Source: Aeromicrobium camelliae
Lineage (GTDB): Bacteria > Actinomycetota > Actinomycetes > Propionibacteriales > Nocardioidaceae
Direction of reading: 5' to 3'
Assembly (NCBI RefSeq): GCF_003850045.1
Contig: NZ_RQJX01000021.1
Location: 1 to 64,000 of the forward strand
DNA length: 64,000 bases
The notes beneath the pieces are model-generated. The model did not search any database and had not been told where the DNA came from. It was given only the letters and a program-made list of their open reading frames with translations. This document shows positions 44,192 through 54,668 of the stretch, piece by piece. The stretch's first letter is position 1, and the number at the start of each line of letters is the position of its first letter. Both the position numbers and the translations under genes were made by a program.

Positions 44192-44995
44192 TCACAGTGC
44201 GTCGTCGAGTGAGGCGACGCGCTCCAGCTGCTCCTCGATCTCCGTGGCCGTCGCGCGCAGCTCGGCCAGTATCCCGCTGAAATCATCGGGCACGGCGGTG
44301 GTCGAGGGTCGTGCCGCGGCGATCGCCGCGATGACGCGGCCCCCGGCGCGGATCGGTACCGAGACCGCATGCAGACCGACCTCGTTCTCGCCCACGTTCG
44401 TGGCGTACCCGTTGCGCTCGACCTCGTCGAGCTCCTGCTCGAGCGCCGCGATGCTGGCGATGGTGTTCTCGGTGACGCGCGGCGGATCCTGGGGGTACAG
44501 GCTCGTCAGGTGCTGACGGGGCAGGCTCGCCAGCAGCACCTTGCCGCTGCTCGTGCTGTGGGCCGGGGAGCGTGAGCCGATGCGCACCGTCACCCGGATC
44601 GGTCGGGGACTCTCGCTGCCGTCGATGAAGCGGATATCGGTCCCCTCGAGCACCGAGAGGTGGACGGTCCATTCGCGCTCCTTCGCGAGCCGTTCGATAT
44701 GGGGCATCGCGATCTGCCGGAGCTCCTGATGCCCGGTGGAGGCGAGCGCGATCTCGACCAGCACGTCACCGGGGACGTAAACCCGCTTGACCGGGTCGTG
44801 GCGCAGAAAGCCCAGATAGGTCAGGGTCGACAGCAGTCGATGCGCGGTCGACGGGGCCACGCCGAGCTCCGCGCTGACCTCGGTGACGCGGACCTGGGAG
44901 GCGTGGCGCAGCGCCAACAGGATGCGCAGGGCGTTCTCCGCGGACTCGATGAGATAGGGCGGTCGGCCCTCCTGGTCATCAGCAGGTTTTCCCAT
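44192..44995 (-). CDS. IclR-family transcriptional regulator
   Basis: A 267-residue regulator. The winged helix-turn-helix at residues 15-70 includes SQVRVTEVSAELGVAPSTAHRLLSTLTYLGFL. The IclR effector domain follows, with GSRSPAHSTSSGKVLLASLP and NVGENEVGLHAVSVPIRAGG. Effectors of this family are small organic or aromatic acids. It is divergent from the catabolic operon starting at 45181 and very probably controls it. The -10 box TAACGT (minus strand 45008-45003) lies 7 bases before ATG 44995, predicting a leaderless mRNA. Confidence 0.9.
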   Translation of the reverse strand: MGKPADDQEGRPPYLIESAENALRILLALRHASQVRVTEVSAELGVAPSTAHRLLSTLTYLGFLRHDPVKRVYVPGDVLVEIALASTGHQELRQIAMPHIERLAKEREWTVHLSVLEGTDIRFIDGSESPRPIRVTVRIGSRSPAHSTSSGKVLLASLPRQHLTSLYPQDPPRVTENTIASIAALEQELDEVERNGYATNVGENEVGLHAVSVPIRAGGRVIAAIAAARPSTTAVPDDFSGILAELRATATEIEEQLERVASLDDAL

Positions 44996-45180
44996 GAGCG
45001 GAACGTTACCTCTTTTTTACGTCTATTGGCAGAATCTGTGCACGATGTTAACAAGATGTTCCGTATAAAAGAATTGTCTTGGCAAAGCTTTCCACTCACC
45101 GGCACGCGTGTTTAGATGACTCCTACCGCCCGTGGCGTGACCTACACCACACGAACGGCGGCGAGTGAAGGAGAGAGACC
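44996..45180. promoter_or_regulatory. AT-rich divergent promoter region, iclR / catabolic operon
   Basis: No gene is seen. Bases 45001-45080 have about 36% G+C by hand count, against a GC-rich background. A direct repeat TTGGCA occurs at 45026-45031 and 45079-45084, with TATAAA at 45064-45069 between them. GAAGGAGAGA precedes the GTG at 45181. This is the likely IclR-binding and promoter region. Confidence 0.55.
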
Positions 45181-46455
45181 GTGCCCGAAGCCCGCAGTTC
45201 CGTCGCGACGTTCGAGGGGTCCGTCCCCCTGGGAGAGCTCCCCGAGGTGGGCTCGGTGCCCAGCTCGATGACGGCGTTGGTCGTGCGTCAGGACCGTTTC
45301 GGGGATCCGGCGACGGCCTTCCAGGTCGAAACCGACATTCCCGTTCCGCCGATCAGCTCGACCGAGGTCCTGATCGGCGTCAAGGCGGCGGGCGTCAACT
45401 ACAACAACGTGTGGGCGGCCCGCGGCTACCCGGTGGACGTCATCGGCGCCCGTCAGCGACAGGGCGATCCCTACGACTTCCACGTCGGCGGTTCGGACGC
45501 CTCCGGGATCGTCTACGCGGTGGGCGCCGACGTCGCCGACATCGCGGTCGGCGACGAGGTCATCGTGCACCCGGGCTACTGGGACGCCGACGACGCGTGG
45601 ACCCGCTCGGGCAAGGACCCGATGATCGGTCCGAGCGCCCAGATCTGGGGCTACAACACGAACTTCGGATCCTTCGCCCAGTTCGCCCGGGTGCAGGCGC
45701 ACCAGGTGCTGCCGAAGGCCGACCAGCTCTCGTGGGCCGAGGCCGCGGCGCCGACCCTCGTCGGCACGACGGCCTACCGGATGCTGCACGGCTGGGCCGG
45801 GAACACCCTCCAGGCCGGTGACGTCGTCCTGGTCTGGGGCGGTTCTGGCGGTCTCGGCACCCAGGCGATCCAACTCGCCCGGCATGCCGGCGCTCAGGCG
45901 GTCGCGGTGGTCTCGGACGATGAACGCGGCCGCTACGCCGAGAAGCTGGGAGCGGTCGGCTACATCAACCGCCGGGATTTCAGCCACTGGGGCATTCCCC
46001 CGCTCGTCGACGACGCCGCCGGGCAGAAGGAATGGACCGCCGAGGCACGGCGGTTCGGCAAGCGCATCTGGGAGATCGTGGGCGAGCGCAAGGATCCGGC
46101 GATCGTGTTCGAGCACCCCGGCAGCGCCACCATTCCCACGAGCATCTTCGTCTGCGAGCCCGGCGGCATGGTCGTCATCTGCGCCGGCACCACCGGCTAT
46201 GACGCGATGGTGGACCTGCGGTACCACTGGACGCGTCAGAAGCGCCTCCAGGGCAGTCACGGCACCAACGACGAGCAGGCCCGTGCCTACAACGACCTCG
46301 TCCGCGCCGGCCACATCGACCCGTGCCTGGGCCGCACCGTCGCCTTCGACGAGCTGCCCGCCGCCCACGCCGAGATGGGACGCGGCGAACAGGTCTTCGG
46401 CAACATCGTCGGCCTCGTCGCCGCGGCCGACGAGAACGAAGGACGCCGCTCATGA
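45181..46455 (+). CDS. Crotonyl-CoA carboxylase/reductase-like zinc-free MDR enzyme
   Basis: A 424-residue medium-chain dehydrogenase/reductase of the Ccr (enoyl-CoA reductase) clade. AGVNYNNVWAARGYPVDV, FHVGGSDASGIVYAVG and GYNTNFGSFAQFARVQ are typical. The nucleotide loop is VWGGSGGLGTQAIQLAR, and RLQGSHGTNDEQA carries a conserved His near the C-terminus. Ccr enzymes reduce crotonyl-CoA or acrylyl-CoA with NADPH, some with CO2 fixation. Whether this one carboxylates cannot be decided from sequence by eye. It is the first gene of the IclR-flanked operon; its stop overlaps the next ATG (ATGA). Confidence 0.8.
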   Translation: MPEARSSVATFEGSVPLGELPEVGSVPSSMTALVVRQDRFGDPATAFQVETDIPVPPISSTEVLIGVKAAGVNYNNVWAARGYPVDVIGARQRQGDPYDFHVGGSDASGIVYAVGADVADIAVGDEVIVHPGYWDADDAWTRSGKDPMIGPSAQIWGYNTNFGSFAQFARVQAHQVLPKADQLSWAEAAAPTLVGTTAYRMLHGWAGNTLQAGDVVLVWGGSGGLGTQAIQLARHAGAQAVAVVSDDERGRYAEKLGAVGYINRRDFSHWGIPPLVDDAAGQKEWTAEARRFGKRIWEIVGERKDPAIVFEHPGSATIPTSIFVCEPGGMVVICAGTTGYDAMVDLRYHWTRQKRLQGSHGTNDEQARAYNDLVRAGHIDPCLGRTVAFDELPAAHAEMGRGEQVFGNIVGLVAAADENEGRRS

Positions 46456-47306
46456 CCACCACCTCCACCACCGCCCTGAACGGAGTGCCGCCGATGCACT
46501 ATGACGACCTGACCCTCGCCCACACCAACGGCGTCACCACCATCACCATCAACCGGCCGGAGAAGCACAATGCGCTGCGCCAGCAGACGTTCGCCGAGCT
46601 CGGCGCGGCCATCGACGCCGCCGCGGCCGACCCGGCGACCCGCGTCATCGTGCTCACCGCGGCGGGCTCGCGCATCTTCTGCTCCGGCATCGATCTCGAG
46701 GCCGACGGGCTGCCTGCCACGACCGAGGAATGGGACGACCACACCAAGGGCAACGCCGACGTCATCAAGCGACTCTGGTACTGCGACAAGCCGCTCATCA
46801 CCGCGCTCAACGGCGGAGCGATCGCCGGCGGCTGCAATCTGGCGATGGTCGGCGACCTCACGATCGCCGCCGACACCGCGTTCCTGTCCGAGCCGGAGAT
46901 CCGGCACGGGGCGCTGTCACCGCTGCTGATGCTGCCATGGCTCATGCAGTTCAAGGGCTTCAACGAGCTCTACCTCACGGGGGACCGTCTCGACGCTGCG
47001 CGAGCCCGCGAACTGGGGCTGGTCAACTACGTCGTGCCCGGCGACGAGCTGGCCGCCGCGGCCCAGCAGCTGGCCGAGCGCGTGGCGCACGCCCCCATGT
47101 TCGCCCTCACGCTGGCCAAGCGGGCCGTCCGGCTGACGCTCGACATCCAGGGCTTCAAGGCCGCCCAGGACGCCCACCGGTACATCGACACGTTGCTGCT
47201 CGGGTCGCAGGGGGTCGTGGAGAAGGAGCGGCTGATGACGGTGCTCGCCGAGGACGGCATGGGGGCGTTCCTGCGGGCACGGGACACCCCCTACGGAGAA
47301 CGCTGA
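46452..47306 (+). CDS. Enoyl-CoA hydratase/isomerase family protein
   Basis: A 284-residue crotonase-fold protein. ITINRPEKHNALRQQTFAEL opens the domain. The oxyanion-hole loops are FCSGIDLE and NGGAIAGGCNLAM. The usual first catalytic Glu (in GGGxELA) is Asn here (GGCNLA), while the second acidic site (SEPEIRHG) is kept. It may therefore act as an isomerase, hydrolase or lyase rather than a normal hydratase. ATG 46452 overlaps the previous stop; an internal ATG at 46494 is possible. Its stop overlaps the next ATG. Confidence 0.83.
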   Translation: MTTTSTTALNGVPPMHYDDLTLAHTNGVTTITINRPEKHNALRQQTFAELGAAIDAAAADPATRVIVLTAAGSRIFCSGIDLEADGLPATTEEWDDHTKGNADVIKRLWYCDKPLITALNGGAIAGGCNLAMVGDLTIAADTAFLSEPEIRHGALSPLLMLPWLMQFKGFNELYLTGDRLDAARARELGLVNYVVPGDELAAAAQQLAERVAHAPMFALTLAKRAVRLTLDIQGFKAAQDAHRYIDTLLLGSQGVVEKERLMTVLAEDGMGAFLRARDTPYGER

Positions 47307-49408
47307 TGTCCGCACTGCGCCCGCTGCTGGACCCCCGGTCGATCGCCGTCGTCGGCGCCTCGCCGCGCGGCAACCGGGGTCTGCAGATCATCGAGAACCT
47401 GCAGCGGTTCGGCTCGACCGCCCGGATCTACCCGGTGCATCCCCGCGAGGCGAGCATCGCCGGTCTCCCGGCGTACCCGGACCTCGCGTCGCTGCCCGAG
47501 ACCTGCGAGTTCGTGGCGATCGCCCTCGATGCTGACCGCGGCCTCGACGTGCTCGAGGAGGCGATCGCCGCCGGCATCGGTGCCGGCATGCTCATCGCGA
47601 GCGGCTTCGGTGAGGGTGGCGCCGGGGCACATCGGCGGGAGCGGCTGACCGCGTTGCTGGACGCCTCCGGCTTCCTGCTCTGCGGACCGAACTGCTACGG
47701 GATCCTCAACGTCGCGAGCGGCTTCGCCGCGTACAGCGGTCAGATCGTCGAGCCGTTCACGCCGGGCCCCGTCGGTCTCATCATGCAGTCCGGCGCCCTC
47801 ACCCACTCGGTGACCGACTCGGCGGTGGGCCGCGGGCTCGGCCTCAGCCACCTCATCACGACGGGCAACGAGGTCGGGGTGAGCCTGGGACAGTACGTGC
47901 GCGCCCTCGCCGCCGACGACCACGTCGGGGTGATCGGCCTGTTCATCGAGGGGCTGCGTGATGCCGACGACTTCGCCGCGGCCGCCATCGAGGCGGCTGG
48001 CCGCGGCAAGCCCGTCGTGGCGCTCACGGTGGGCCGCTCGGAGTTGGCGCAGCACGCGGCTCATGCGCACACCGGAGCGATCGCGGGGCACGGCTCCGCT
48101 CTCGCGGGGCTGTTGCGTCGGTGCGGCGTCGTGCAGGCCGGCGATCTCGACGAGTTCCGCGAGCTGCTGGTGCTGTTCGGGTCCGGCATCACGCCGACGG
48201 CCGATGCGGTGGCGGTCTCGTCGATCTCCGGAGGCGGCACCGGCCTGCTCGCCGACCTAGCCGAGGACGCCGGGCTCGAGCTCGCGACGCTGGAGGCGCG
48301 GACCGTCGCGCAGTTGGCGGCGACGCTCCCGGATTTCGCGACCGTCGCGAATCCGCTCGATCTGACCGGTGCCGCCGTGGAGGACCACGGCATCGCCAGT
48401 GAGGCGCTGGCCGCTCTGCAGTCGGACTCCGGCGTCGGGTTGGTCGTGCTGGCGCTCAACGTTCTCGCCGGATCCGCGGGCCAGCAGGAGCTCTACCGCG
48501 ACCAAGCCCGGATCCTCGCGAAGCGTGCCGGTGAGGCCGGAAGCCCGGTGCTCGCGCTCAGCCTCACCAGCGGGGCGTGTGACCCCGTGGTCGCCGCGAC
48601 GCTGTCGGAGCGCGGCGTGCCGCTGCTCGCGGGCGCCCGGCCGAGCCTCACCGCGATCGCCGCCTGGCAGCGCTGGCACCGTCAGCCGCCGCCACGACCG
48701 CTCAGCCGGTCGAGCGGCGACAGCGCGCTGCCATGGGACGGCACGGTGTTGGTGGGCAAGCCCGCCATGGACGTCCTGGGCGAGGCCGGCATCGCGGTGC
48801 CCGAGGCGGTCCTCGCGGCCTCGCCCGCGGCGGCCGCTGCGGCGTGGGGTGAGCTGAGCGCCCCGGTCGTGCTCAAGCTCGAAGCCGCCGGGCTCGCGCA
48901 TAAGACCGAGCTCGGTGGTGTGGTGACCGGCATCAGAAGCCGAGACCAGCTGGCCGAGGAAGCCACGGCGATGCTCGCGACCGTGCGGGACCGTGCACCT
49001 GAGCTCGACATCGCCGGCTTCCTGCTGCAGGAGCAGGTCGTGGCCGACGCCGTCGAGTGCATCGTCGGCATCGTCCGCGACCCCCAGGTCGGTCTCGTGC
49101 TGACGGTGGCGCCCGGCGGCGTGCTGGCCGAGCTCGCCGGCCCCGCCAGCACCACGCCGGTCCCGGCAGCCGCCGAGGACATCGACGCCCTCATCGACGG
49201 CTCCGCCCTCGGGACGCTGTTGGCCGGGTACCGCGGTGCTCCGCGCGCCGACCGCGCGGCGCTCGTCGAGCTCGTCCGGGCGTTCAGTGACCTGGTGCAC
49301 CGCGGCGGTCCCGAGGTGGCGGCCGCCGAGCTCAACCCTGTCCTTGTGCTCCCCGAAGGCCAAGGAGCCGTCGCCGTCGACGCACTGTTCGTGAAGGAGG
49401 AGTCATGA
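47306..49408 (+). CDS. Acetate/acyl--CoA ligase, NDP-forming (fused alpha-beta)
   Basis: A 700-residue ADP-forming acyl-CoA synthetase of the fused type. It has an N-terminal CoA-binding domain (RSIAVVGASPRGNRGLQIIENL), then succinyl-CoA-synthetase-like domains with LCGPNCYGILN, IMQSGALTHSVTDSAVGRGLG and the phospho-histidine loop AHTGAIAGH (His255). The C-terminal ATP-grasp domain (~480-700) has SAPVVLKLEAAGLAHKTELGGV. It would activate a carboxylic acid to its CoA ester with ATP, giving ADP and Pi. ATG 47306 shares a base with the previous stop. In this operon it is the entry enzyme for the imported acid. Confidence 0.87.
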   Translation: MSALRPLLDPRSIAVVGASPRGNRGLQIIENLQRFGSTARIYPVHPREASIAGLPAYPDLASLPETCEFVAIALDADRGLDVLEEAIAAGIGAGMLIASGFGEGGAGAHRRERLTALLDASGFLLCGPNCYGILNVASGFAAYSGQIVEPFTPGPVGLIMQSGALTHSVTDSAVGRGLGLSHLITTGNEVGVSLGQYVRALAADDHVGVIGLFIEGLRDADDFAAAAIEAAGRGKPVVALTVGRSELAQHAAHAHTGAIAGHGSALAGLLRRCGVVQAGDLDEFRELLVLFGSGITPTADAVAVSSISGGGTGLLADLAEDAGLELATLEARTVAQLAATLPDFATVANPLDLTGAAVEDHGIASEALAALQSDSGVGLVVLALNVLAGSAGQQELYRDQARILAKRAGEAGSPVLALSLTSGACDPVVAATLSERGVPLLAGARPSLTAIAAWQRWHRQPPPRPLSRSSGDSALPWDGTVLVGKPAMDVLGEAGIAVPEAVLAASPAAAAAAWGELSAPVVLKLEAAGLAHKTELGGVVTGIRSRDQLAEEATAMLATVRDRAPELDIAGFLLQEQVVADAVECIVGIVRDPQVGLVLTVAPGGVLAELAGPASTTPVPAAAEDIDALIDGSALGTLLAGYRGAPRADRAALVELVRAFSDLVHRGGPEVAAAELNPVLVLPEGQGAVAVDALFVKEES

Positions 49409-50223
49409 GAACGGCAGCCAGTGAACCGGCCCAGGCCGGTCAGCGACACGATGAGCAGCTCATCTCGATCCGAGGGGCGACGCTCGCTTATCCCACCGCC
49501 AGCGGCGATCCCGTCCAGGCGCTCAACCCGATCGACCTCGACATCCGCGCGGAGGCGTTCGTCTCGCTCGTGGGGCCCTCGGGCTGCGGCAAGAGCACCC
49601 TGCTGAAGATCCTCGCGGGTCTGCTCCACCAGTCCGAAGGTGAGGTGACGTTGGACGGCCGGCCGCTGACCGGACCGTCCCCCAACGTCGGCGTCGTCTT
49701 CCAGCAGCCGGTCCTGCTGCCGTGGCTGACGATCCTCAACAACGTCCTCCTCCCGATCCGGGTGCAGAAGCGGAACGTGGACGAGTACCGGCAACGCGCC
49801 ATGGACCTGCTGGCGATGGTCGGGCTGGAAGGCTTCGAGTCGCGCTACCCGTCCGAGCTCTCCGGGGGCATGCAGCAGCGCGTGGGCATCGTCCGCGCGC
49901 TCGTCCCCGACCCCCAGATCCTGCTGATGGACGAGCCGTTCGGAGCGCTCGACGCCTTGACCCGTGAGCAGCTGAACGACGATCTGCAGACCATCTGGGC
50001 CGAGCAACGCAAGACCGTCTTCTTCATCACGCACTCCATTCCGGAGGCCGTGTACCTGAGCGACCGGGTGCTGGTCATGTCCGAACGCCCCGGCCGGGTG
50101 ATCGCCGACTTCGAGGTCGACATCCCCCGTCCGCGCTCGCTTGAGGACGTGTCGCTTCCCGAGTTCGTCGAGCTCACCGGGCGGATCCGCCGCCTGCTCA
50201 ATGCCAAAGGAGGAATCGACTGA
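49405..50223 (+). CDS. SsuB/TauB-type ABC transporter ATP-binding protein
   Basis: A 272-residue ATPase of the nitrate/sulfonate/taurine importer family. Walker A is GPSGCGKSTLLKILAGL, the Q-loop VFQQPVLLPWLTILNNV, the signature LSGGMQQRVGIVRAL, Walker B ILLMDEPFGALDALTR, and the H-loop FITHSIPEAVYLSDRVLVM. The start overlaps the synthetase gene (ATGA), and the stop shares a base with the permease start. With the next two genes it forms one importer. Co-transcription with CoA enzymes suggests a carboxylate or aromatic acid as substrate rather than sulfonate. Confidence 0.88.
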   Translation: MRTAASEPAQAGQRHDEQLISIRGATLAYPTASGDPVQALNPIDLDIRAEAFVSLVGPSGCGKSTLLKILAGLLHQSEGEVTLDGRPLTGPSPNVGVVFQQPVLLPWLTILNNVLLPIRVQKRNVDEYRQRAMDLLAMVGLEGFESRYPSELSGGMQQRVGIVRALVPDPQILLMDEPFGALDALTREQLNDDLQTIWAEQRKTVFFITHSIPEAVYLSDRVLVMSERPGRVIADFEVDIPRPRSLEDVSLPEFVELTGRIRRLLNAKGGID

Positions 50224-51074
50224 TGACCGCCGACCTGGCTAGCGCCTCCCCCCGGACATCACCGGCACCACGACGGACCGCCCGGCGCACCGCGCGCCGT
50301 GCCCGCCGCGCCGACTGGATCGCGGTGGTTTCGACCTTCGTGGTCGTCGTCGGCGGCTGGGAGGCCGTCGTGCGCATCGCCGACATCTCCTCCATCGTGC
50401 TCCCGCCGCCCTCGCTCATCGTGGGCAAGCTCTACGACGGCCTCGTGCACGGCACCTTCGTGAAGAACCTCGGCTACACGATGGCCGAGACGGTGCTCGG
50501 TTTCGCGATCGCCGCGTTCCTCGGGATCGTGCTCGGCGCGCTCGTCGCGGAGATCCGCTGGATCCGCCGGGCCGTCTACCCCTACATCGTGGCGTTCCAG
50601 ACGGTGCCCAAGATCGCACTCGCCCCGCTGCTGGTGATCTGGTTCGGGTTCGGCATGACGAGCAAGGTCATCGTGGCGGTCACCGTCGCGTTCTTCCCCG
50701 TCATCGTCAACACCATCGAGGGTCTGCAGAATACCGATCATCAGCGCATCGACATGATCCGCGCGATGGGGGCGGGGCGCTTCGAGGCGTTCCGTCGGGT
50801 CAAGCTGCCCTCTGCGCTCCCATACATCTTCGCGGGCCTCGACGCGGCGATCGTGCTTTCGCTGCTCGGTGCCGTCGTCGGCGAGTTCATGGGGTCGCGC
50901 GCGGGCCTGGGCAACCAGATCCTCATCTTCAACTCGGTGCTCGACATCGCCGGCTCGTTCGCCGTGCTGATCCTGCTGTCGATCATCGGATTCCTGCTGC
51001 ACCTCCTGCTCGTCATGGTTCAGAAGAAGGTCGTGTTCTGGACCAACGTCCACGCTGTCTCCAGCGGCGCCTAA
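50223..51074 (+). CDS. SsuC/TauC-type ABC transporter permease
   Basis: A 283-residue permease with an Arg-rich N-terminus and about six membrane helices. The EAA-type coupling loop is MIRAMGAGRFEAFRRVKLPSALPYIFAGL. FQTVPKIALAPLLVIWFGFG and VVGEFMGSRAGLGNQI are hallmark segments of the BPD type II (SsuC) class. ATG 50223 directly follows the ATPase stop. It is the transmembrane part of the importer. Confidence 0.88.
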   Translation: MTADLASASPRTSPAPRRTARRTARRARRADWIAVVSTFVVVVGGWEAVVRIADISSIVLPPPSLIVGKLYDGLVHGTFVKNLGYTMAETVLGFAIAAFLGIVLGALVAEIRWIRRAVYPYIVAFQTVPKIALAPLLVIWFGFGMTSKVIVAVTVAFFPVIVNTIEGLQNTDHQRIDMIRAMGAGRFEAFRRVKLPSALPYIFAGLDAAIVLSLLGAVVGEFMGSRAGLGNQILIFNSVLDIAGSFAVLILLSIIGFLLHLLLVMVQKKVVFWTNVHAVSSGA

Positions 51075-51101
51075 CCCCCCACCCCCTCAGGAGCCCCCTC
51101 C

Positions 51102-52178
51102 ATGAAACTCTCCAAGCTCAGCCTGTCCATCGCCGGCGCCGTCGCCGCTGCCCTCACGATGTCCGCCTGCTCCGGCTCCTCGTCCGACGCCGGCGAGAAC
51201 ACCTCCCTCGTGGTCGCCATGGGCCACGAAGCGCCCTACCCGGGCGAAGAGGCCGTCATGTACGCGATCCCCAAGGGGCTCGGGTTGTTCGAGAAGTACG
51301 GCATCGACGTCCAGTTCCAGCCGACCGCGGGCTCGGGCGTCGCGATCCAGCTCGTGCAGGCCGGTGAGGCCGACCTCGGCCAGGGCAACCCGTCCTCGGT
51401 GATGGCGGCCGTCGACAAGGGTGTCGACATCAAGGTCGTCTACAACATCATCCCCACTTACGGTTCCGGGCTCGCGGTGCTGCCTGACAGTCCGATCACC
51501 TCCCCGAAGGACCTCGCCGACACCACCATCGGCGTCGCCTCCCTCTCCTCCTCACGGCTTCCGGAGGCGCAGGCGATGGTCGCGGAGGCGGGCCTCACCG
51601 ACTCGGTCGAGTTCGTCGCCGTCGGCGTCGGCGCTCAAGCCGCGAGCGCGTTGACCTCGGGCAAGGTCGACGGCCTCTACCTGTGGGACGCTGCCTACAA
51701 GTCCATCGAGCTCAGCGGCACGCCACTGCGGGTCATCCGCGACGTCTTCACTGAGTCCGCCCAGCTGCTGGACTTCGTCCAGTACGCGAGCGCCGACGCC
51801 ATCGAGAACAAGGCCGACGCCATCGAGAAGCTCGGCAAGGCCGCGGCGGTGGCCCACGCCTGGGCGAAGGAGAATCCGGAGAAGGCCCTCGACCTGTTCT
51901 ACGAGGAGTTTCCGAATGCCCGGTCCGACGAGGCCGGTCGGCAGCGTGACCTGGCGATCCTGACCTTCACGCTCGAGCAGTTCGATCCCGAAGGCACCGA
52001 CCAGTCCGGCTTCGGGGACACTCCGGAGAAGCGCACCACCACGACGGCGAAGTTCCTGGCCGATCATCAGTTGATCCCCAAGGCGCTGGCCGCTGAGGAG
52101 TACGTCGACAACCAGTTCGTTCCTGCCTACAACGAGGGCGTCGAGGACGACCTGGCCCAGCTCTCCGGCAAGGAGTGA
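51102..52178 (+). CDS. SsuA/NMT1-like substrate-binding lipoprotein
   Basis: A 358-residue periplasmic-binding type II protein. The signal peptide ends in MSACSG, a lipobox, so it should be lipid-anchored outside. AMYAIPKGLGLFEKYGIDVQFQ-type start (MYAIPKGLGLFEKYGIDV), GSGVAIQLVQAGEADLGQGN and SALTSGKVDGLYLWDA are NMT1/SsuA-like. It delivers the ligand to the SsuC/SsuB pair. Ligands in this class include sulfonates, nitrate, thiamin precursors and phthalate-like acids, and sequence alone does not tell which. Confidence 0.86.
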   Translation: MKLSKLSLSIAGAVAAALTMSACSGSSSDAGENTSLVVAMGHEAPYPGEEAVMYAIPKGLGLFEKYGIDVQFQPTAGSGVAIQLVQAGEADLGQGNPSSVMAAVDKGVDIKVVYNIIPTYGSGLAVLPDSPITSPKDLADTTIGVASLSSSRLPEAQAMVAEAGLTDSVEFVAVGVGAQAASALTSGKVDGLYLWDAAYKSIELSGTPLRVIRDVFTESAQLLDFVQYASADAIENKADAIEKLGKAAAVAHAWAKENPEKALDLFYEEFPNARSDEAGRQRDLAILTFTLEQFDPEGTDQSGFGDTPEKRTTTTAKFLADHQLIPKALAAEEYVDNQFVPAYNEGVEDDLAQLSGKE

Positions 52179-52179
52179 G

Positions 52180-53781
52180 GTGCGAGTCGTCGACCGCCTC
52201 GCGCAGTCGCTGCGCGAGGCGGGCATCTCGACCGTCTTCGGCCTCTTGGGCGATGGCAACCTCGATCAGGTTCTCGCCTTCGCGGCGCACGGCGGCCGGT
52301 TCGTCCCCACCCTCGACGAGTCGGGGGCGGTGAGCGCGGCCGACGGCTGGGCACGCACCACCGGGCAGGTCGGCGTCGCCTCGGTCACCCATGGGCCCGG
52401 CTTCACCAATACGCTGACCGCGCTCACCGAGGCGGTCCGCGCGCGCAGCCACCTGCTGCTGCTGACCGGAGACACCGCGCCGGTAGCGCATCATCTCCAG
52501 CGGTTCGATCTCGCCGCCGCGGCGCGGCTCGCGGGGGCGGAGTACGTGCGGGTGGGGGCGGATACCGCCGGCGCCCAGATCGCCGCGGCGATGGAGCAGG
52601 TGCGGGCCGCCTCGGTGCCGCTCGTGCTCGACGTGCCGGTCGACATCGCAGCGGCAGAGGTCATGGCGGTCGCGGATCGCTCGGACCCGCCGGCGCCGGC
52701 GGTCGTCGAGCCGGACGAGGCCGCCCTGGACACGGCGATCGGCATCATGGCGACCGCGCGCCGGCCGCTTGTGCTGGCGGGCCGGGGCGCGGTGCTGGCC
52801 GATGCCCATGACGAGCTGGTTCGGCTGGCGGGGCTGCTGGGGGCGCCGCTGGCGACCTCGCTTCTCGGCCGGGAGTACTTCGCCGGTGATCCGTTCGACC
52901 TCGGCATCGCCGGGACGTTGAGCGAGCCGGCGGTGCTGGACGCCTTGCTGAGCTGCGACTGTCTCATCGCGTTCGGCGCGAGCCTCAACCGGTTCACGAC
53001 GGCCGACTTCGCGCTCGCCACCGGTCGTCCGGTCATCCAGGTGGACCGCGACCCGGCCGCCTTCGGTCGGTACACCGCACCGACCGTGGCGGTCACGGGT
53101 GACGCCCGCCAGGTCGCCGCCGCGATGAGCCGGGCGCTCGAGGGGGCCGAGCTCGAGCCGAGCCACTGGCGGCAGCAGGCCCGCGAGGCCCGGATCGCGG
53201 CAGCACCCGAGGACGGGCCGCGCGCTGCGGCGGGAACACTCGACCTGCGCACCGCGATGCGGGTGCTCGACGAGGCGCTGCCGGACGACCGGCTCGTCGC
53301 CACGGACACCGGCCGGTTCATCTACACCGCATGGCGCGAGCTGCGGGTCGCGGACCCGCGCGACTTCGTGCACACCCTCAACTTCGCGTCCATCGGGCTC
53401 GGGATCGCCACCGCGGTCGGGGTCGCGGCGGCTCACCCCGATCGCATGACCGTGGCCGTCGCGGGTGACGGCGGCGGGATGATGGGCCTGGGCGAGCTGA
53501 CAACCGCCGTGCGCGAGCGGCTGCCGCTCGTCGTCGTCATCGCCGACGACGGCTCCTACGGCATGGAACGGCACCACCTGCGCCGGGCCGGGCTCGACCC
53601 GGAGCACGCGAGCACGCAGTGGCCGAGCTTCGCCGAGGTGGCCCGCGCGTATGGGGCCGAGGGCCACACCGTCACCGACGCGGACCAACTCCGCAAGGTC
53701 CTCGAAGGGCTCGACCCGCTCCCGGCGGGTCCGGTGCTCATCGACGTGCTGGTCGACCCGGACGCGGTGGTCGCGCAATGA
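52180..53781 (+). CDS. ThDP-dependent enzyme, acetolactate synthase/decarboxylase-like
   Basis: A 533-residue thiamin-diphosphate enzyme with the Pyr, central and PP domains of the POX/AHAS family. The catalytic Glu is in TLDESGAVSAADGWAR (residue about 48). The ThDP site is VAGDGGGMMGLGEL...ADDGSYGMER, with Asp-Asp instead of the usual Asn-Asn or Asn-Asp. No FAD-site signature or regulatory subunit is seen. It could be a 2-oxoacid decarboxylase, a carboligase or a 2-hydroxyacyl-CoA lyase. GTG 52180 overlaps the end of the lipoprotein gene's stop region. It is the last gene of the IclR-linked operon. Confidence 0.83.
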   Translation: MRVVDRLAQSLREAGISTVFGLLGDGNLDQVLAFAAHGGRFVPTLDESGAVSAADGWARTTGQVGVASVTHGPGFTNTLTALTEAVRARSHLLLLTGDTAPVAHHLQRFDLAAAARLAGAEYVRVGADTAGAQIAAAMEQVRAASVPLVLDVPVDIAAAEVMAVADRSDPPAPAVVEPDEAALDTAIGIMATARRPLVLAGRGAVLADAHDELVRLAGLLGAPLATSLLGREYFAGDPFDLGIAGTLSEPAVLDALLSCDCLIAFGASLNRFTTADFALATGRPVIQVDRDPAAFGRYTAPTVAVTGDARQVAAAMSRALEGAELEPSHWRQQAREARIAAAPEDGPRAAAGTLDLRTAMRVLDEALPDDRLVATDTGRFIYTAWRELRVADPRDFVHTLNFASIGLGIATAVGVAAAHPDRMTVAVAGDGGGMMGLGELTTAVRERLPLVVVIADDGSYGMERHHLRRAGLDPEHASTQWPSFAEVARAYGAEGHTVTDADQLRKVLEGLDPLPAGPVLIDVLVDPDAVVAQ

Positions 53782-53787
53782 CCGGCG

Positions 53788-54561
53788 CTATTCGCCGATG
53801 AAGGTCGCCTTGCCGGGCCCGTCGGCGAGGAACGAGGCCATGCCGTGCTGCAGGTCGGCGGTGTCGAAGAGTGCCGAGGCGATGGCCGTCGTGGCGGCGT
53901 TCGCTCCGGGGACGCCACCGGCCTCGTAGGCGCGCAGGATGTCCTTCGCGGCGCCGAACGCCCGTGTCGGGCCGTCGGCGAGGTCCTGCGCGAACCGGTG
54001 GACCTCGGCATCGAAGTCGGCCGGTTCAATGACCCGGTTGACGACGTTCCAGCGCTCCAGCGTGGCCGCGTCGTAGTGCGTACCGGTGAACACCAGCTCC
54101 TTGGCCCGAGCGACGCCGGCCCGAGCGGCCAGGCGCTGCGTGCCGCCCATCGTGGGCGTGAGACCGATGACGCGCTCGACAAGACCGAACCGGGCGGCGG
54201 TGCTGGCCAGCAGCACGTCGCAGGCCAGCGCGACCTCGAACGCCCAGGTGAGGGTCAGGGCGTGCGCGGCGAAGATCGTCGGGATGCGCAGGGCCGCGAT
54301 CCGGTCCGGCAGCTCCATCATGCGGTCGTACAGCGCCTGAGTGGCATCACGCGAGGGGCAGGCGGCGAACTGCGCGACATCGACGCCTCCGGAGACGATC
54401 CGGCCCTCCGCGCCGATCACCAGCACACGCGGCAGCTCCGCCTCGATCTGGTCGAGGGCCCGATCGATCTCGTCGTGCAGGTCCAGCGAGTACAGGTTGA
54501 GCGGAGGCGCGGAGACGACGAGGGTGGCGACGCCGCCCTCGCGCTCGACGCGGACCGTCAC
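53788..54561 (-). CDS. Enoyl-CoA hydratase/isomerase family protein (second copy)
   Basis: A 257-residue crotonase-fold protein. Oxyanion loops are IVSGGVDVAQF and AAHALTLTWAFEVALACDV. Both catalytic acids seem present (AFEVALA and GLVERVIGL), followed by TPTMGGTQRLAARAG. It is therefore a better hydratase candidate than the copy at 46452. GTG 54561 overlaps the stop of a 36-residue ORF (GTGA) and gives the family N-terminus. The 3' end is 6 bases from the convergent ThDP gene. Confidence 0.85.
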   Translation of the reverse strand: MTVRVEREGGVATLVVSAPPLNLYSLDLHDEIDRALDQIEAELPRVLVIGAEGRIVSGGVDVAQFAACPSRDATQALYDRMMELPDRIAALRIPTIFAAHALTLTWAFEVALACDVLLASTAARFGLVERVIGLTPTMGGTQRLAARAGVARAKELVFTGTHYDAATLERWNVVNRVIEPADFDAEVHRFAQDLADGPTRAFGAAKDILRAYEAGGVPGANAATTAIASALFDTADLQHGMASFLADGPGKATFIGE

Positions 54562-54668
54562 TGCGCGGACGGCTGGTAGACGCCGCCCTTGTCGGCGGTG
54601 GCCTTGCGGTACACGACGACACCGGCAGCGACGAGCCCGGCGAGGACAAGGAGGCGACGTGCAGACAT
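54558..54668 (-). CDS. 36-residue single-helix membrane peptide
   Basis: ATG 54668 to TGA 54558 gives a small protein with a basic start (MSARR), one membrane-spanning stretch (LLVLAGLVAAGVVVY), a basic boundary (RKATADKGG) and a short polar tail. The stop overlaps the GTG of the enoyl-CoA hydratase gene by 4 bases (GTGA), which points to translation coupled to it. It resembles the DLW-39-like peptide at 36627 only in general layout. No family is recognised. Divergent from the cyclophilin gene. Confidence 0.6.
   Translation of the reverse strand: MSARRLLVLAGLVAAGVVVYRKATADKGGVYQPSAQ

Follow-up and report, generated by a model that had tools for sequence, protein, structure and literature searches.

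A 64,000-nt stretch of the Aeromicrobium camelliae genome (contig NZ_RQJX01000021.1 of assembly GCF_003850045.1, positions 1 to 64,000; hereafter, the window) contains a block of seven genes on one strand (45181-53781, +) next to a divergent IclR-family regulator gene (Table 1). The genome holding the window comprises 3.06 Mb in 40 contigs. The block encodes an enoyl-CoA reductase of the crotonyl-CoA carboxylase/reductase family (ECR), a crotonase, a nucleoside diphosphate (NDP)-forming CoA ligase, a three-gene ABC importer, and a thiamine diphosphate (ThDP)-dependent enzyme. The first four junctions, from the ECR gene through the permease gene, overlap by 4, 1, 4, and 1 bases, whereas gaps of 27 bases and 1 base separate the binding protein gene from the permease and ThDP genes, respectively (four of the six junctions overlap). 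Both this layout and the families that had been named in a sequence-only reading of the stretch (Ccr-like reductase, crotonase, NDP-forming ligase, importer, and ThDP enzyme) agree with the Pfam and NCBIfam annotation. Among the best 25 or fewer matches per protein, the ECR is the sole block protein that scores above an NCBIfam cutoff. Scans of the block detected one promoter-like site, inside the binding protein gene (shuffled sequences, 0.5; standard deviation [SD], 0.7), and one terminator-like site (shuffled sequences, 2.0; SD, 1.4); these counts are close to those of the shuffles and thus indicate nothing beyond chance.

Table 1. Features of the catabolic block and its divergent regulator in the window.
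Feature	Positions	Strand	Evidence
IclR-family regulator	44192..44995	-	PF01614 130.6 bits, PF09339 56.4 bits (IclR_C/HTH_IclR)
Divergent promoter region with candidate half-sites	44996..45180	.	Alignment with relatives
Enoyl-CoA reductase, crotonyl-CoA carboxylase/reductase (ECR) family	45181..46455	+	TIGR01751 493.4 bits
Crotonase-family enzyme, N129 replacing the first catalytic Glu, E149 kept	46452..47306	+	ECH_1 152 bits
NDP-forming acyl-CoA synthetase (ACD type)	47306..49408	+	CoA_binding_2, Succ_CoA_lig, ATP-grasp_5
ABC importer ATPase, SsuB/TauB/NrtD type	49405..50223	+	NCBIfam models below cutoffs among the matches listed
ABC importer permease, SsuC/TauC type	50223..51074	+	All NCBIfam models below cutoffs
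Substrate-binding protein, NMT1/THI5 class, lipoprotein-like start	51102..52178	+	PF09084
ThDP-dependent enzyme, acetolactate synthase/decarboxylase fold	52180..53781	+	TPP_enzyme N, M, C

The whole block is found in Aeromicrobium sp. PE09-221 and A. piscarium in the same order (IclR-ECR-crotonase-ligase-ATPase-permease-binding protein-ThDP). The identity to the window proteins is 82% for the ECR, 89% for the crotonase, 71 to 72% for the ligase, 82 to 83% for the ATPase, 85% for the permease, 76% for the binding protein, 74 to 75% for the regulator, and 61 to 62% for the ThDP protein, the least conserved of the block. A ThDP match of more than 60% identity occurs in only 3 of 37 genomes of the genus, namely, these two and the window genome. 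In all three, the regulator gene and its seven divergent neighbors lie exactly between a DUF3817 gene and a convergent second crotonase gene (crotonase 2; 53788-54591, -). Six other Aeromicrobium loci, chosen from the genus genomes without the block rather than representing all of them, show the order SHMT-SURF1-DUF3817-crotonase 2-PPIase-rhomboid, with 24 to 816 bases between the DUF3817 and crotonase 2 matches (67 in G023); no block gene was matched in any of the six. Because the block occupies one shared site in three genomes and is missing from 6/6 other loci, the eight genes constitute a single accessory unit that is gained or lost as a whole, in keeping with the proposal that an importer and a catabolic pathway form one unit beside the IclR gene. 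Crotonase 2 was also considered as an operon gene and rejected: it belongs to the genus core (45 of 49 genomes) and occurs both with and without the block.

Outside the genus, two Nocardioides genomes (G657 and G685) carry the same eight genes in the same order at 59 to 86% identity, and none of seven Aeromicrobium flanking proteins used as queries had a match in the 19 kb around either copy. The order conserved in other genomes shows that the gene set is more than a chance assembly. At strict thresholds, a survey of 396 genomes of the phylum recovered the ligase in the window only (E ≤ 1e-150) and the reductase in two genomes, the window genome included (E ≤ 1e-185).

To a large extent, the enzymes of the block also recur without its importer. 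A search with the ligase (E ≤ 1e-100) in 294 Nocardioidaceae genomes, the window genome among them, yielded 12 loci in 9 genomes, all of which were fetched and scanned. A related crotonase and a related ThDP enzyme are encoded within 12 kb of the ligase gene in 12/12 of these loci (the ThDP gene being adjacent to it or farther off within that distance) and an ECR in 8/12. The recurring enzyme set is real. Three kinds of neighbors can be distinguished. Five loci have the block with its importer (type I; ECR in 5/5), and in each of these, the IclR gene accompanies it. Six Nocardioides-group loci (type II; ECR in 2/6) encode ligases, crotonases, and ThDP enzymes at 49 to 51%, 52 to 54%, and 48 to 54% identity, respectively. 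By tblastn, all six contain a hydantoinase-like amidohydrolase, two carbon-nitrogen (carbamoylase-like) hydrolases, a class III aminotransferase, two luciferase-like oxidoreductases, a DUF1185 protein, and an Opp/Dpp-type permease, and five of the six contain a glutamate dehydrogenase-family gene and a semialdehyde-dehydrogenase-like gene; the type II family names are based on one or two members each, and several of the type II and III names come from matches under the NCBIfam cutoffs. One type II locus has an F420 reductase gene (198 versus 149.8 bits). The type II genomes G618, G673, and G680 encode no ECR genome-wide at E ≤ 1e-110, and the sole ECR of G685 at this threshold is that of its type I block. 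Of the type II genes, the hydantoinase-like, carbamoylase-like, aminotransferase, and semialdehyde-dehydrogenase-like ones have no counterpart in the window block. The single type III locus, in PE09-221, encodes a ligase (51%), a ThDP enzyme (47%), a crotonase (37%), and an ECR (77%), accompanied by a dipeptide-type importer and by MR/MLE enolase, FAA hydrolase, SMP-30-like, BtpA, 2-oxoglutarate-iron oxygenase, and nucleoside hydrolase (IU_nuc_hydro, 191.6 bits) genes. Because the set recurs with three kinds of neighbors, solving its biochemistry once would allow loci of several kinds to be annotated. As a separate observation, DMGDH-like, PurU-like, and FolD-like genes, as in the breakdown of N-methyl compounds, adjoin all six type II clusters (L043-L048, L050-L055).

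The reductase is a member of the crotonyl-CoA carboxylase/reductase family (TIGR01751, cutoff of 378.55 bits). Its nearest PDB sequence is the Mesorhizobium ECR 9KVA (603.6 bits; E = 2.6e-180), which is reported to be a dimer (PMC12632816). The same family includes the Ccr of the ethylmalonyl-CoA pathway, from which the block differs in having no mutase or epimerase gene and in one residue. At the position of Glu171 of the K. setae ECR, which we take to be the CO2-binding residue, the window protein has N159; 9KVA also has Asn, and the M. extorquens structure 4GI2 has Glu. Among 134 aligned rows, this position is D in 107, N in 26, and E in 1, a Streptomyces polyketide synthase (PKS) outgroup; these rows are redundant (the window occurs twice, once as P0001, L005 occurs twice, and there are further locus/P-entry duplicates besides the one outgroup) and were drawn from 120 listed of 2625 homologues. 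A Streptomyces plasmid ECR (54%) located in a PKS cluster prompted consideration of a role in making polyketide extender units, which was set aside because the block has no PKS gene.

Within the Nocardioidaceae, 20 ECR genes were detected in 16 of the 294 genomes (E ≤ 1e-185), with Asn at the presumed CO2 position in 5/5 type I loci and Asp in the other 15 of the 20. The eight ECRs at 77 to 100% identity, window included, are exactly the eight encoded in ThDP-ligase clusters. Conversely, none of the twelve at 69 to 73% has a ThDP relative within the 17.5 to 18 kb scanned around each. Among the latter, L113 and L114 encode distant ligase relatives (30% and 34%), in L117, L118, and L090, the ECR is accompanied by an AMP-type ligase and a crotonase, and L113 additionally has iron-alcohol dehydrogenase, methylmalonate-semialdehyde dehydrogenase (MMSDH), hydrolase-like, and crotonase relatives nearby. 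The counts for these reductase loci are not independent of descent. At L091, a further ECR gene of A. piscarium has as its neighbors CoA transferase genes of the CaiB type (one confirmed), a crotonase, a relative of IclR, and an importer of the NMT1 type, and no ThDP relative was seen in the stretch scanned.

The crotonase departs from a standard enoyl-CoA hydratase. Of the two glutamates on which hydration presumably depends (Glu144 and Glu164 of the rat enzyme), the window protein retains only the second, as E149, and the first is N129. Across the 12 ligase-ThDP clusters, N occupies the first position in 11 and W in the remaining one, and the second glutamate is kept in 12/12. By contrast, the first position is E or D in 12 of 13 comparison loci (L113, L114, L117, L118, L090, L024, L026, L059, L062, L063, L065, and L066), the exception being L056, with L. 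The usual addition or removal of water is therefore unlikely, judging from the residues; expulsion of a better leaving group, or an isomerization, would be easier to imagine. The loss of the first glutamate with retention of the second is also the pattern of hydroxycinnamoyl-CoA hydratase-lyases, and NDP-forming ligases are paired with such lyases for ferulate in Sphingobium. The block could conceivably cleave hydroxycinnamate side chains: an aryl-enoyl-CoA made by the ligase would be split by the crotonase, acting as a hydratase-lyase, into acetyl-CoA and an aldehyde for the ThDP enzyme. We consider this very unlikely because the reductase would be superfluous and no such lyase model appears among the best 25 of the 69 NCBIfam matches of the crotonase. 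The crotonase might alternatively be a malonyl-CoA or methylmalonyl-CoA decarboxylase, a role that was also weighed.

The ligase chain combines a CoA-binding, a ligase-CoA, and an ATP-grasp domain, and His292 of DddX, the phosphohistidine, aligns with the histidine of its HTGAIAG motif. This ACD-type organization supports the earlier proposal that an NDP-forming ligase performs the CoA activation. Its nearest PDB sequences include DddX (7CM9; 265.5 bits), a 4-hydroxybutyrate-CoA ligase (201.6 bits), and, third among the solved relatives, an ADP-forming 3-hydroxypropionate-CoA ligase. Given the first of these, the ligase itself might act as an ATP-dependent lyase, cleaving dimethylsulfoniopropionate (DMSP) to dimethyl sulfide and acryloyl-CoA, a product that would suit the reductase. 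However, W391, F435, and the catalytic E432 of DddX are reported to be needed for DMSP binding and cleavage (PMC8163506), and in an HMMER pairwise alignment, W391, E432, and F435 correspond to T, Q, and L in the window protein, the latter two beside an alignment gap. Because the DMSP residues are replaced and the phosphohistidine is kept, the protein is read as a ligase only; the DMSP lyase identity was set aside, and we regard such a role as extremely improbable.

The importer had been described as SsuBCA-type, which is accurate for its architecture but not for the apparent affinities of its binding protein. The latter belongs to the NMT1/THI5 class (PF09084, 100.8 bits; cutoff, 20.5) and scores far below the sulfonate model (SsuA_fam, 70.7 versus 163.5 bits), with 34.3 and 31.1 bits for taurine models, and there is no sulfonate monooxygenase among the eight block genes. 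In the structural ranking, pyrimidine/thiamin binders and Thi5 come first; the importer is SsuBCA-like in architecture, and in fold, its binding protein is nearest to pyrimidine/thiamin binders, not sulfonate binders.

Glu47 of the ThDP enzyme, which we take to be the cofactor-activating glutamate, is invariant in 14/14 aligned sequences, window included (one of two overlapping L005 gene calls was dropped from this count). The asparagine of the GDG...N metal motif is replaced by aspartate (DDGSYG) in the three Aeromicrobium proteins and present in the other 11. Although the best PDB sequence matches are acetolactate synthases, the protein falls short of the acetolactate synthase equivalog (TIGR00118, 223.5 bits versus the cutoff of 538.35). 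Its predicted structural neighbors, among them the 2-hydroxyacyl-CoA lyase AcHACL, are tied; with a weak model and tied rows, 2-oxo-acid enzymes, carboligases, and acyl-CoA lyases are not separated by structure.

The place of this enzyme in the pathway is the point on which we depart from the sequence-only reading, which had the CoA ester reduced, rearranged, and only then cleaved or decarboxylated by the ThDP enzyme. A 2-hydroxyacyl-CoA lyase releasing an aldehyde or ketone and formyl-CoA would be one enzyme of this kind. A ligase combined with a ThDP lyase is a known actinobacterial solution for 2-hydroxyisobutyrate, where both are encoded in one catabolic cluster; that cluster differs from the block in its specific 465-amino-acid HCL ligase, its dehydrogenase genes, and its adjoining GntR gene (PMC7176365). 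Moreover, in Rhodococcus rhodochrous and Tomitella, ThDP relatives at 48 to 49% identity have genes for a crotonase, an acyl-CoA dehydrogenase, and an AMP-type ligase as neighbors, and the presence of AcHACL among the tied structural neighbors would fit a lyase. Against this order, the unit has no gene for handling formyl-CoA, the best sequence matches are acetolactate synthases, and the type II settings indicate steps on amino acids and 2-oxo acids. The window protein also has 533 amino acids, with the TPP C domain ending at 523, and thus no counterpart of the C-terminal lid of the 590-amino-acid 2-hydroxyisobutyrate enzyme; since the lid is described as special to AcHACL (PMC8760513), its absence is compatible with other lyases. 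Taken with the one-glutamate crotonase and the acrylate-type operons in which relatives of the reductase are found, the type II genes leave a final ThDP step apparently unsupported, and we consider it improbable, if still a serious alternative.

These acrylate-type operons were identified through plasmid searches, which gave at least 24 records for the ECR (E ≤ 1e-80), including six Rhodococcus records at 69 to 73% identity, and at least 11 for the ligase (E ≤ 1e-45; best E = 3e-97); the counts are possibly lower bounds, since a ligase search at 1e-80 came back empty despite that best match. Five Rhodococcus records were opened, of which one carries no annotation and four were read (L022-L025). 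In these ccrA operons, the gene for an ECR of the same subfamily comes first, then a gene of the quinone oxidoreductase family and one for a crotonase, with an AMP-type ligase nearby; three of the four have iron-alcohol dehydrogenase and CoA-acylating MMSDH genes, and two of the four have nitrile or amide hydrolysis genes close by. Such a layout is that expected for the catabolism of acrylate and 3-hydroxypropionate. The block shares with these operons the ECR beside crotonase and ligase genes. It differs in several respects: the plasmids have MMSDH and iron-alcohol dehydrogenase in 3/4, a hydrolase-like crotonase in 4/4, and ligases of the AMP type (besides which a distant ACD-type ligase gene lies where the L024 stretch ends), the crotonases that were tested keep both glutamates, and no ThDP gene or NMT1 importer was found in the stretches scanned. 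A second variant is provided by clusters of Variovorax (L062), Caballeronia (L063), and rhizobia (L059, L065, and L068) that combine a ligase and a crotonase of the block's families with an AcuI-type reductase (AcuI-like in the rhizobia) in place of the ECR and have no annotated ThDP gene. In Variovorax and Caballeronia, the AcuI acrylyl-CoA reductase (524 and 502 bits; cutoff, 440) precedes the ligase-crotonase pair, and in Variovorax, an ABC importer adjoins these genes, as in the block; the L059 reductase is just below the cutoff (427 versus 440 bits). Acid activation, a crotonase, and an acryloyl-CoA-type reductase thus recur as a module in the Rhodococcus operons and the AcuI clusters.

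Accordingly, the block could serve to assimilate acrylate or 3-hydroxypropionate through the ligase, a crotonase acting as 3-hydroxypropionyl-CoA dehydratase, and an acryloyl-CoA reductase, with the ThDP enzyme as a side activity. The shared reductase family, the common ligase-crotonase-reductase logic, and the 3-hydroxypropionate-CoA ligase among the solved relatives of the window ligase are consistent with this. We nevertheless find it rather improbable: the crotonase has lost the first catalytic glutamate, where the acrylate-type enzymes tested keep an acidic residue, none of the MMSDH, alcohol dehydrogenase, and hydrolase-like companions is found among the eight genes at 44192-53781, and the ThDP gene in 12/12 loci would be left unexplained. 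Two traits set the block apart from the acrylate-type operons, namely, the first crotonase glutamate missing in 12/12 clusters and the pyrimidine/thiamin-like binding protein.

From the observed gene content, boundaries, recurrence, and residues, we infer the chemical steps, their order, the regulation, and the substrate class. The preferred reading, to which we assign a probability of slightly more than one in three, is an IclR-controlled accessory unit in which a ThDP step, the ligase, an elimination by the crotonase, and the ECR would lead to propionyl-CoA or methylmalonyl-CoA. The small compound brought in by the NMT1-class importer would probably be an acid that resembles an N-heterocycle or carries a heteroatom substituent, or else the 2-oxo-acid counterpart of such an acid. 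The ThDP enzyme would decarboxylate a 2-oxo-acid precursor to an aldehyde, which a host dehydrogenase would oxidize to the acid for the ligase; the amino-acid-releasing and aminotransferase genes of type II suit such a decarboxylase upstream of the ligase, and at those loci, together with the hydantoinase-like gene, they might supply the 2-oxo acid by starting from a compound of the hydantoin type. The ligase would then form the CoA thioester via its phosphohistidine, the one-glutamate crotonase would eliminate a beta leaving group (or isomerize the thioester) to give an acryloyl-CoA-like enoyl-CoA, and the ECR would reduce this, with or without CO2, to propionyl-CoA or methylmalonyl-CoA, products that could enter a mutase route. 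The window genome has acyl-CoA mutase-family genes (TIGR00641, methylmalonyl-CoA mutase type), as do 8 of 14 control genomes. Several crotonases weigh against this scheme. At two loci with a ThDP relative but no ACD ligase, they differ from those of the clusters: in R. rhodochrous L057, the one after the ThDP gene has Y/H at the two glutamate positions; in Tomitella L008, the crotonase after the ThDP gene has Q/E and the next one D/F, and two upstream have E/E and N/F. In addition, the L056 crotonase is without the first glutamate although no ThDP gene is annotated at that locus.

A more specific proposal, decidedly a long shot, is that the set represents a new route for removing propionate-type side chains from a heterocycle or another heteroatom. 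A 4-substituted 2-oxobutyrate would be decarboxylated by the ThDP enzyme to a 3-substituted propanal, the acid formed upon its oxidation would be activated with CoA, and the one-glutamate crotonase would release the heterocycle in free form together with acryloyl-CoA, on which the ECR would act. An example of a source of such a 2-oxobutyrate is the 3-amino-3-carboxypropyl group, derived from S-adenosylmethionine, in the tRNA base acp3U. If correct, this proposal would bring together in one pathway the binding protein of pyrimidine type, the neighboring hydantoinase and nucleoside hydrolase genes of other loci, and the change in the crotonase.

Each of the families involved is known, but the combination is new as far as the open-licence literature shows: as the sequence-only reading had supposed, no characterized pathway with this exact set was matched there. 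The block would add a pathway, for a substrate still unnamed, that unites an NDP-forming ligase, a one-glutamate crotonase, an enoyl-CoA reductase, and a ThDP enzyme. Nature moreover provides material for comparison, since closely related reductases occur with and without a ThDP partner and crotonases with one or with two glutamates; the difference in reaction is thereby directly testable.

The regulator resembles the PcaR/PobR family of NCBIfam at 148.6 bits, below the cutoff of 284.75. Between the IclR and ECR genes, the inverted half-sites CGGAAC (44999-45004) and GTTCCG (45058-45063) are candidate regulator sites. In PE09-221 and A. piscarium, CAGAAC and GTTCTG stand at these positions, and both candidate half-sites thus change together; in Nocardioides, they are weak. 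No sigma-70-like site was found by the promoter scan in this region (44996-45180).

Among the matches listed, the nearest plasmid relatives of the crotonase (52%), ligase (40%), and binding protein (47%) are encoded on the Rhizobium plasmid pMK-3 (L056), in the order crotonase-ligase-ATPase-permease-binding protein. This locus resembles the block also in its crotonase without the first glutamate but differs in having no ECR or ThDP gene annotated in 26 kb and in adding AtzD, D-2-hydroxyacid dehydrogenase, thioesterase, and ArgE-like genes. The cyanuric acid amidohydrolase gene (537 bits; cutoff, 360), the first of the cluster, overlaps the crotonase-ligase-importer row (10003-16816 of L056). 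Because cyanuric acid itself lacks a carbon chain on which a CoA ligase could act, the substrate at this locus may be a substituted isocyanurate. Finally, the rhizobial loci L059, L065, L066, and L068 share genes for a pseudouridine glycosidase, a sugar kinase, a crotonase, an NDP-forming ligase, and a 2-oxoglutarate oxygenase. The Terrarubrum locus (L066) is split by a transposase gene and has no 2-oxo-acid:ferredoxin oxidoreductase gene in the stretch scanned; the other three additionally contain a nucleoside hydrolase gene, a 2-oxo-acid:ferredoxin oxidoreductase-family gene, and an MDR (AcuI-like) gene.

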